Shown here in pieces: positions 11,190 through 31,589 of a stretch of DNA of 64,000 nucleotides (within the stretch, counting starts at the first letter, position 1; every line of letters begins with the position of its first letter). Under the pieces are notes generated by a model that saw nothing but the letters and a program-made list of their open reading frames with translations, searched no databases and was not told the DNA's origin. Location: assembly GCF_000147715.2 (NCBI RefSeq), contig NC_017934.1:2790001-2854000 (forward strand), in the 5' to 3' direction. Source of the DNA: Mesotoga prima MesG1.Ag.4.2. Its GTDB lineage: Bacteria; Thermotogota; Thermotogae; Petrotogales; Kosmotogaceae. The position numbers and the translations under genes were made by a program.

Positions 11190-11672
11190 GCCAGTCTATC
11201 CTTTGGCGGGACGCATTGCACCAAGGAGCAGCAGTAGTCGCAATGACAGCAAGCCTCTGAAAAAGCGATGCTTACGCTTGCACACCAGGAGGCAAGAAAC
11301 AAAGAAATAGAGGTTTGGGAGCGAGATTCTTTGCAGAACCCCTGTACGCTTATGAAAAAACCGTTTTCCCTCAACGGTCATCCGTCCTCCGAGAAGACCA
11401 AGTCGTCCTTGGTCCTTCGTCCAAGAACATGGACCCGTCCTTCGGGAAGACTGGTTCTTCGTTCCGACGCTGCGCGTCCAGGTTGTTCGTTCTTGGTAAA
11501 GAATTCCGTCATGACTGAAAAATGAGGTCCGTTCTTGATGTGAACACACCCCGTCGACGATGAAGCCGTCGACATCCTTCTCCAGAGGGGATTAAAGAAC
11601 TTTTCAAGATCCCAGAACCTTACTTGCTCTCTTTGCTTTTCCCTTCTCTCTACTCTCTGAATAATGGTTTGG
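11190..11672. repeat. Composite intergenic repeat block 2
   Basis: This gap upstream of the aldolase gene holds repeat modules only. About 11268-11345 matches block 1 in the opposite orientation (TTTGTTTCTTGC, GGGTTCTGCAAAG phrases). About 11390-11590 is nearly identical to 30905-31110, including the TCCTTGGTCCTTCGTCC phrase and the paired GTCGACG arms. About 11610-11672 matches 31620-31695. The block stops abruptly at about 11673, where the IS110 element begins. Small open frames on either strand recur with each copy and lack ribosome sites. Confidence 0.85.
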
Positions 11673-11715: not shown

Positions 11716-12942
11716 TCAAGCAGTAGACCGGCAGGTAGCTACTGAAGATACTTTCAGCGAGTATTCAGGCTTCTGTTTTCTCTCCTTTTTAGAAGTAGTA
11801 TAATCAGAAGGAGGATTCCTCTTGAGGAATTTCTCTTCTGAGTAGGGAGTCAAATCCCTAAGCATGGCGAAGGCGATTTTGAGGATGGTGTTCGCCAATG
11901 CACGGAGGGCATGAGCAGAGCTCTTGCCCTCGCTCTTTTTGTTGTCGTAGAATCTTTTCATCCATTTAGAGCTATTTGTTGCAGCAAGACTGGCTATATG
12001 AAGAGTCCCTCTGAGATAGTGATTGCAGTTACTTCTCATCTTGGTGGTATTCTTGTTACCGCTTCCATAGTAAGTCGGAGTAGTTCCCGCGTACCTTTGA
12101 AGGTCTCTGTAGGAACTGAACTTGTGTGTTAGGTAGGCAACTATGAGCTGGCTGGCGATTATTACTCCCACTCCAGGTAAGGTGAGAAGCACACTGAATT
12201 CGCTTTTCTCAATGATTTCTTTCATCTGCTTGCCTATCTCTTCCTTCATCACTTTCTTCTCCATAGCGTACCTTGAGAAAGCGACTATCAATGTCCTTAT
12301 GGAAGCTGGCACATATCTTTCAAGCGCGATTTTTCTGAGCTCCTTCAGCTTGCTTTTGAGATTGCTATTTATCAGGAAACCCATCTCTTTAAGCTTCAGG
12401 AGTATCTCTTTATCAGACATTGAGAGAAAGTCTTTTGCAGTAGGACAGATGGATATAAACGCCAGTTTTCTGGCGGAAGTGCCACTGAAAACTTCTTTCA
12501 CCTCCGGCCAGTACCTTTCAAGGTATGCATCCAGCCTTCCTATATCCTGCATCATAGATACATTTATCACAGCGTTCTCTTCAACCAGTACATCCAGCTC
12601 AAAAGCTATCCCTTCCCTCTTCACTTGCAAACACCATTCGGGGTTATGCTCATAGGTCATCGCTATTACCTTCGAATCAATGAAATCGCTCTTGCCTTCT
12701 ATCACGAAGAATGACCTGGCTTCGCTCGATCTCCTGCTTGGAAGTATGTACACCTGCCTGTTGTTCCTTAGAAGATAATCGACGATCCTGTTATTGCCAT
12801 CCTCAATAACATAGACCGCCTCCTTTATCTTCAGAAGCTTCGCAAAATCTTCTTCCTTGTTCTTTAAAACTAACTTCTTACCCTGGTGCAAAAGATAACA
12901 GTAATGCTTCTTTCTTCCCCAATCAATTCCAACTATCTCCAT
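11716..12942 (-). CDS. IS110 family transposase
   Basis: A 408-residue RuvC-like (DEDD) transposase of the IS110 family. The four acidic residues are Asp7 in GIDWG, Glu47 in VIEDGN, and Asp86 and Asp89 in KSDFIDSK. The C-terminal Transposase_20 domain shows TLPGVGVIIASQL, DLQRYAGTTP and YYGSGNKN, whose serine corresponds to the serine nucleophile of the family. The start ATG follows GGAGGTGCAGTT. The frame is complete, so the element may be active. IS110 enzymes act with a structured bridge RNA encoded in the element's non-coding end; the candidate region is listed separately. Confidence 0.95.
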   Translation of the reverse strand: MEIVGIDWGRKKHYCYLLHQGKKLVLKNKEEDFAKLLKIKEAVYVIEDGNNRIVDYLLRNNRQVYILPSRRSSEARSFFVIEGKSDFIDSKVIAMTYEHNPEWCLQVKREGIAFELDVLVEENAVINVSMMQDIGRLDAYLERYWPEVKEVFSGTSARKLAFISICPTAKDFLSMSDKEILLKLKEMGFLINSNLKSKLKELRKIALERYVPASIRTLIVAFSRYAMEKKVMKEEIGKQMKEIIEKSEFSVLLTLPGVGVIIASQLIVAYLTHKFSSYRDLQRYAGTTPTYYGSGNKNTTKMRSNCNHYLRGTLHIASLAATNSSKWMKRFYDNKKSEGKSSAHALRALANTILKIAFAMLRDLTPYSEEKFLKRNPPSDYTTSKKERKQKPEYSLKVSSVATCRSTA

Positions 12943-30814: not shown

Positions 30815-31110
30815 AGAGAAGGAGTATTGTCGAGAGCTCGCTGCGCTTAAAGGCGGAGAACCCGCTGAGCGCTGATGAAAACCGCGTTGTCCGTCAACGG
30901 TCCACCGTCCTCCGAGAAGACCAAGTCGTCCTTGGTCCTTCGTCCCAGACCATGGACCCGTCCTTCGGGAAGACTGGTTCTTCGTTCCGACGCTGCGCGT
31001 CCAGGTTGTTCGTTCTTGGTAAAGAATTCCGTTATGACTGAAAATGAGGTCCGTTCTTGATGTGCACACACCCCGTCGACGATGGAGCCGTCGACACCCC
31101 TCTCGAGAGC
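30815..31110. repeat. Composite intergenic repeat block 4a
   Basis: Starts with a CGCTGCGCTTAAAG...CCCGCTGAGCGCTG phrase that also occurs at about 40490-40530 and 40620-40650. From about 30895 to 31110 it is nearly identical to 11380-11590, including the sequence around TCCTTCGGGAAGACTGG and the arms GTCGACG...CGTCGAC. It ends with a double-hairpin unit whose first hairpin is CTCTCGAGAG. No gene. Confidence 0.87.
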
Positions 31111-31221
31111 TCATCACTACCCACATCGTCTTCTTCGGAGCTCAATCATTTTGCTCCTCAGTTCCAGAATCAGTTAGCATTAGTAGTAAATAATGACGGT
31201 TTCATGGATCTCTATGTTCTT

Positions 31222-31501
31222 GATCTTAAATCCCCGCTTGAGCGGGGGGGACCGCTTGCGGTGGGGTGTGTGCTCTTTGAACAACGTTTATAATAGATTG
31301 GCCTGTTTGAAATTGAACGACAAATTCGCTCTTAACGTTATTTGGTCTGTGATCCATATGTATGCTCCTACCAGAGACCAAGAACTAACATCGAGCAACC
31401 ACTCACATCGGACTATTTCAGAGCATCGGTTTTTTCGCATACAAAGACCAACACCCTCCGCCACTACGTGGCCCTCCTCCCTCAAGGGAGGACTTAAGAT
31501 C
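31222..31501. repeat. 280-bp element bounded by inverted double-hairpin arms
   Basis: The left arm (31222-31279) starts GATCTTAAATCC; the right arm (31442-31501), read on the other strand, starts GATCTTAAGTCC. Each arm contains a first hairpin with loop TTGA (CCCCGC...GCGGGG on the left, CCTCCC...GGGAGG on the right), a second hairpin (ACCGC...GCGGT; GCCAC...GTGGC), a GGGTGT tract and a shared TCTTTG end. Two stem positions differ by paired changes that keep the pairing. The 160-bp interior has no long open frame. It may be a MITE-like unit or just two facing repeat copies. Confidence 0.7.
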
Positions 31502-31589
31502 AGGATCATCAGGAGCCAAACACAGCATTCGCACGAGAACCAACATATTAATGGAATTTAACTCTTTGACTCATATGTAATGATGAACT

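Follow-up and report, generated by a model that had tools for sequence, protein, structure and literature searches.

Anatomy of the element

The window, a 64,000-nucleotide stretch of the Mesotoga prima MesG1.Ag.4.2 genome (G000), contains a gene-less element at positions 31205 to 31518 (no strand assigned) that consists of two facing arms and a conserved noncoding interior of about 150 nt. The left arm (31222 to 31279, plus strand) begins with GATCTTAA (31222 to 31229) and continues with hairpin 1, CCCCGC(TTGA)GCGGGG (31232 to 31247), hairpin 2, ACCGC(TT)GCGGT (31251 to 31262), and GGGGTGTGTG (31263 to 31272), followed by CTCTTTG up to 31279. The right arm (31442 to 31501, minus strand) has the same opening GATCTTAA, a hairpin 1 of TCCTCCC(TTGA)GGGAGGA (31492 to 31475), a hairpin 2 of GCCAC(GTA)GTGGC (31472 to 31460), and GGAGGGTGTT (31459 to 31450), followed by TCTTTG down to 31442. 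Each arm thus runs inward from GATCTTAA[A/G]T through hairpin 1, whose loop is TTGA, and hairpin 2 to a G-rich, TGT-containing motif and (C)TCTTTG. In this motif, as the earlier note does not mention, a segment of the 3' strand of hairpin 1 recurs (GGGG in the case of CCCC..GGGG, and GGAGGG in that of CCTCCC..GGGAGG), so that hairpin 1 would be able to pair with either. Rereading of the sequence confirmed the two facing double-hairpin arms that an earlier note on this DNA had described, together with its two paired differences between the arms in hairpin 1 (C-G/T-A and G-C/C-G).

In a repeat search, the arms emerged as an inverted repeat of 49 nt with 73% complementarity; the predicted fold of the whole unit was better than that of 100 out of 100 shuffles (z of -3.1), and the DNA fold of the right arm had z values of -2.4 and -2.8. 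No gene was found in the interior (31280 to 31441, no strand assigned): there was no Pfam match to the open reading frame that spans the element (31193 to 31558), and tblastn revealed no similarity to DUF559 within the interior, the place occupied by a DUF559 gene in a gene-bearing version of the element (L058, genome G009). The boundary of the Mesotoga element is obscured by nested repeats. Between 31111 and 31590, the element of approximately 290 bp seems to lie within a longer repeat, the outer ends of which resemble a diverged inverted repeat (CTCATCACTACCC... / ...GTAATGATGAACTC); this longer repeat seems in turn to have inserted into hairpin 1 of the solo arm, and intergenic repeats in the genus are mosaic.

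Copies in Mesotoga

In the window genome there were 23 matches to the left arm, for 10 of which the identity reached at least 90% across 66 to 86 nt, and among the Mesotoga loci that were fetched, 19 copies of the left arm and 25 of the right arm could be told apart by their flanks. Copies of the whole element scored hundreds of bits in the genome search, far above chance; near-complete copies of about 290 bp numbered about ten in G000, and there were more in G001 and G009. At the site orthologous to that in the window, the element was present in G001 (93% identity) and missing from G009, G004, and G003. The dispersal of copies and their presence or absence between relatives show that the window unit is not a fixed regulatory structure but an element that is dispersed and polymorphic.

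The two further units that the earlier note had regarded as related both proved to be solo arms of a third subtype, on the minus strand, as identified by comparison with the sister genome G008, whose intact orthologue has hairpin 1 CCCCTC(TCGA)GAGGGG, a hairpin 2 of the GTCGACGG..CCGTCGAC type, and GGGGTGTGTG. The arm at about 31063 to 31110 is truncated inside hairpin 1, where CTCTCGAGAG meets CTCATCACTACCC, and G008 carries an intact arm at the same site; in the arm at 11545 to 11596, hairpin 1 has decayed, and a 67-nt alignment with the intact arm of G008 shows 92.5% identity. A gene for an IS110-family transposase (11716 to 12942) adjoins this second solo arm. No transposase was found for the ends of the Mesotoga element, although the note had pointed to one as a possible associate; the gene linked to the arms encodes a DUF559 nuclease.

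Association of the arms with DUF559 genes

In a sister genus (G010), facing arms of the same kind enclose a DUF559 gene, and arms adjoin all the short DUF559 genes found in 103 genomes of Thermotogota. A search of genome contigs with four Thermotogota DUF559 proteins yielded 80 loci that span more than ten phyla, with hosts among the Bacteroidota, Neomarinimicrobiota, Calditrichaceae, Acidobacteria, Cyanobacteria, and Nitrospirae, several proteobacterial classes, the Dehalococcoidia, one spirochaete, the Bacillota, and others. Of the 73 testable loci, an automated scan found 62 with an arm within 350 nt of the DUF559 gene, 28 of which had arms on both sides, compared with 5 of 485 control windows per strand from the same loci and about 1% of block-shuffled flanks; in all 11 loci that the scan missed, arms were visible by eye. 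The facing orientation is clear by eye, but the script also detected opposite-strand arms in 28 to 32 of the 73 loci, and in some distant relatives (L186 and L189) the arms face outward. The suggestion in the earlier note that relatives occur in distant phyla is thereby borne out, the same arm plan recurring around DUF559 genes in a dozen or more bacterial phyla.

In general, an arm is built of hairpin 1 and a G-rich motif, with or without hairpin 2 as well; the motif repeats a section of the hairpin-1 3' strand and ends in TGT or TGG. An example with hairpin 2 is AATTCCCCTCC-NNN-GGAGGGG-TGCCCGAAGGGC-GGGGTGG, and one without it is GTCCCC-TTGA-GGGGAC-TTTA-GGGGTGT. The two arms of one locus resemble each other beyond chance: of 31 loci, 18 have the same hairpin-1 sequence in both arms (permutation mean of 9.1, maximum of 15), and the arms agree in plan (P = 0.0004). 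The match of the third motif is only modestly significant (P = 0.01). Downstream of position 3342 in L151, at least six arms stand in tandem in one orientation, with varying hairpin-1 loops.

Within the window's own genus, a decayed DUF559 gene in L058 (G009) lies between a left arm that is 91% and a right arm that is 87% identical to those of the window, in the same orientation, in an element of about 550 bp end to end as opposed to 314. Since these arms match those of the window around a DUF559 gene, the window element carries DUF559-element ends around an interior that is different and free of genes; it shares both ends with a gene-bearing element, as a gene-less miniature inverted-repeat transposable element (MITE) does. 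The window genome has no DUF559 gene, which leaves present-day mobility there unexplained. Beside the DUF559 genes of about eight viral contigs (L171, L174, L176, L177, L179, L180, L182, and L183), no arms were detected, and these genes may be ordinary free-standing homing genes; seven matches to the hairpin-2 pattern in a scan of viral contigs are apparently due to chance in GC-rich DNA.

The DUF559 nuclease

The proteins of L055, L057, L099, and L154 scored 93 to 117 bits against the DUF559 profile (PF04480), for which the gathering cutoff is 20.6. The family profile matched PDB entry 3hrl, a DUF559 protein from Neisseria (8e-32), and 3r3p, the homing endonuclease I-Bth0305I (7e-5); an AlphaFold model (pLDDT of 87) matched the folds of 3hrl, 3r3p, and Vsr (1vsr), with 3r3p at rank 2 and TM scores of 0.61 and 0.80. 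Residues R26, E33, W37, F50, Q53, I60, D62, F63, E73, D75, G76, H79, D86, and R89 were invariant in 47 proteins. By fold and sequence, the DUF559 protein is thus predicted to be of the EDxHD, or Vsr-like homing-endonuclease, type.

DUF559 was assigned to the EDxHD homing family in 2022 (PMC9403480), according to the passage of that paper that deals with it. VsrA of Caulobacter, which has the same domain as the element nuclease, is described as causing a DNA damage response in a methylase mutant and is read as a Vsr-like nuclease with a proposed role in mismatch repair (PMC12907096); the passages on DUF559 in these two papers make no mention of hairpin arms or hairpin repeats. In the literature searched, which left subscription journals mostly outside, we found no paper that connects DUF559 or Vsr-like proteins with hairpin or inverted repeats and mobility.

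Covariation in the arms

The earlier note had taken the paired differences between the arms as covariation and hence as a sign of selection on the folded form. Covariation was found between subfamilies: in an alignment of 29 arms across phyla, both sides of a pair changed in 19 cells, compared with 4.7 expected, and none of 500 shuffles reached 19, while slid registers gave 3 to 13 both-sided cells. Three rows of this alignment are misaligned, which works against the structure, and hairpin 2 was used in selecting most of the 29 rows, so that its score is partly built in. Arm lengths were too variable for a clean seed alignment for a covariance model, and the analysis relied on direct detectors with controls. 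When hairpin 1 played no part in detection, an upstream stem of at least 4 pairs was found in 49 of 68 matches, as opposed to 5.5% of shuffles, and with a detector blind to hairpin 2, the pairs of hairpin 2 still changed jointly.

Among copies within the genus, by contrast, there was no compensatory change. The left and right Mesotoga subtypes had 0 both-sided, 16 one-sided unpaired, and 4 G-U changes, although the per-site change in their stems (0.011 and 0.036) was lower than elsewhere (about 0.09). A comparison of unpaired with paired stem changes, which the note itself had named as its refutation, therefore came out against it when run on these copies; the difference between left and right is an old subfamily difference, and selection on the folded form is not supported as it was stated. 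Covariation between subfamilies and its absence within the Mesotoga subtypes indicate that the fold matters at the level of the founding subfamily and that single copies drift.

Insertion and movement

In L157, a recent insertion, arms and a DUF559 gene lie after alaS, and the 54-nt 3' end of alaS is exactly duplicated on both outer sides. In 19 relatives there is no element, and alaS is followed directly by other sequence, mostly a terminator-like hairpin. This is the one clear case of an exact long target duplication, and thus an insertion of the REP/RAYT type, without duplication, is not what was found. Diverged duplications of 36 to 95 nt, of the starts of flanking genes, were seen in L108 and L128. 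Long target duplications occurred in 4 of 67 loci compared with 1 of 195 controls; because they are rare and an arm-like repeat accounts for one of the four, those beyond L157 are suggestive only as evidence of movement.

Of 61 Winogradskyella genomes, 13 carry an element at one intergenic site and about 45 have this site empty, with just 27 to 57 bases between the matched flanks in some of them. In the filled copies (L230 to L242), the DUF559 frame stays open across the right arm and is joined to the gene that follows downstream, giving an open reading frame of 440 to 470 residues; the downstream gene resembles threonine dehydratase, and the fusion is kept in about a dozen species. Across the 61 Winogradskyella genomes, element-type DUF559 genes and dispersed arms co-occurred (25/13/2/21; Fisher P = 1.2e-5, not corrected for phylogeny), and DUF559 in long open reading frames showed no co-occurrence with dispersed arms (P = 0.59). 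Thirteen of these genomes have arms without an element-type DUF559 gene, like the window genome. The same genome search found many back-to-back arm doublets (minus then plus) with starts about 54 to 122 bases apart, which are REPIN-like and leave no space for a gene.

Some genomes carry several DUF559 genes, with 6 in G112 and 5 in G106. On a plasmid of Pseudanabaena galeata (L186, 403 to 3336), a DUF559 element lies in frame inside an intact open reading frame for a PglX-like methylase (1,621 amino acids); its arms are translated as peptides of the PSPLMGEGGRG type, and L143 and L133 resemble this case.

Discussion

The window unit is probably a nonautonomous, MITE-like copy of a mobile element in which one small DUF559 nuclease gene stands between a left and a right arm that face each other, and this gene-less copy looks like a member of an undescribed and very widespread family of mobile DNA. 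Support for this reading comes from the anatomy of the arms, their position flanking the gene across phyla, the dispersed multicopy gene-less arms, the insertion polymorphism, and the one exact long duplication; the nuclease would be the driver of movement.

The nearest rival holds that DUF559 is a homing endonuclease gene that invaded preexisting palindromic repeats, the arms being its target site and having spread by another process. The homing-endonuclease fold of the protein and the placement of DUF559 in the EDxHD homing family (PMC9403480) speak for it; moreover, lone arms were more numerous than gene-bearing copies in the Winogradskyella genome search, and arms persist in genomes without DUF559. 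We nevertheless consider it unlikely, as the gene sits between two facing, sequence-matched arms and not within one split arm, the gene-less elements of Mesotoga retain both arms around an unrelated interior, and L157 already resembles a joint insertion of the arm pair and the gene at a previously arm-free site. It is very improbable that the arms are REP-like sequences mobilized by a Y1 transposase of the RAYT/IS200 type, with the DUF559 gene as a passenger. REPINs, which are inverted doublets of short palindromes linked to RAYT (PMC3116915), do look alike, and some Mesotoga genomes contain Y1_Tnp genes, but Y1_Tnp (PF01797) is absent from G000 and G001, which have at least 20 element matches, and present in G007, which has one; beside the arms, it was seen in no locus that was read, whereas DUF559 was. 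RAYT was rejected as the driver, as it does not track copy number in Mesotoga.

We give still less credence to the idea that a conventional host transposase of the DDE or IS110 type moves the units in trans as ordinary MITEs and that the link with DUF559 outside Mesotoga reflects a convergent repeat. The IS110-type gene near the solo arm at 11545 and the interior of the window element, devoid of any trace of DUF559, would fit this idea, but nearly identical arms enclose DUF559 within the genus (L058 in G009), so that the link is not confined to the outside of Mesotoga, and in other phyla, too, arms of the same plan accompany DUF559. Least likely of all is a functional RNA or a set of terminators of flanking genes kept in place by selection, for which the stable double hairpins and the paired changes between subfamilies might speak: the 64-kb window has no Rfam match at the gathering score, no terminator-like site was found, the positions are dispersed and multicopy and differ by presence or absence at an orthologous site between close relatives, and some insertions lie inside open reading frames.

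If the mobile-element reading is correct, the DUF559 protein would recognize the folded arm, probably in single-stranded DNA during replication, and would nick beside it, and the target would be nicked on its two strands tens of bases apart. Host repair might then copy the element between the ends by microhomology, which would produce the long and variable target duplication. As recognition would be a property of the arms, any gene-less copy, lone arm, or arm pair could spread in trans and outlast loss of the gene, as they may have done in the window genome.

The elements recall several known systems. Like REP/REPIN sequences with their RAYTs, and like IS200/IS605, they combine inverted pairs of short palindromic hairpins and many gene-less copies per genome with one small associated enzyme gene and likely recognition of folded DNA; those systems use a Y1 HUH transposase, whereas the DUF559 elements have a nuclease of the PD-(D/E)XK/Vsr type, arms of two hairpins, and a repeated G-rich motif. 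With EDxHD (Vsr-like) homing endonucleases such as I-Bth0305I, they share the nuclease fold and sequence profile (3r3p), but the DUF559 gene lies between hairpin arms of its own type and not in an intron or intein, and the arms also exist gene free. MITEs, too, are small gene-less elements whose inverted ends are related to a gene-bearing element, here one of a sister genome; they depend on a DDE transposase and have a short, fixed target duplication, whereas for the DUF559 elements no DDE transposase was found, the ends are double hairpins, and the duplication appears long and variable.

A comparable arrangement is seen in Escherichia coli, where the DUF559 protein matches the equivalog PRK09767 and its gene is, we presume, ycjD. 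Just downstream of this gene lies a 44-nt hairpin repeat, CCCTCT..AGAGGG-TT-AGGGTGAGGGG, which is present in 5,395 of 5,426 genomes at a median of 17 places each; only one flank of the gene carries such an arm-like repeat. Judged by its length and copy number rather than by a published sequence, the repeat near ycjD is probably boxC. Published boxC elements are 50 to 56 nt long and have 22 to 32 copies (PMC2267715).

There is no agreed function for DUF559, a gene family that is very common in bacteria, and palindromic repeats dispersed through genomes have for decades been cataloged, mostly without a known origin; the link between arms and DUF559 supplies a candidate enzyme for such repeats and a candidate substrate for the enzyme. 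We tentatively suggest, as a possibility somewhat short of even, that these elements form a new class of bacterial mobile DNA in which a nuclease of the Vsr/homing type is the sole mobility gene, the ends are double hairpins that are recognized when folded in single strands, and staggered nicks are combined with host repair, and that this class is the source of a large share of bacterial palindromic repeats, including the E. coli repeat near ycjD that is presumably boxC. What is claimed as new is the hairpin-ended element whose sole gene is a nuclease of this type, a claim that would shrink to that of a novel form of a familiar type if a homing gene has colonized existing repeats. Should the nuclease move the arms, it would represent a class of mobile-element enzymes distinct from the DDE, HUH, serine, and tyrosine recombinases. 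Some elements have also inserted in frame into coding sequence, for example within a gene for a PglX-type methylase or as a fusion with a downstream biosynthetic gene, so they shape proteins too.
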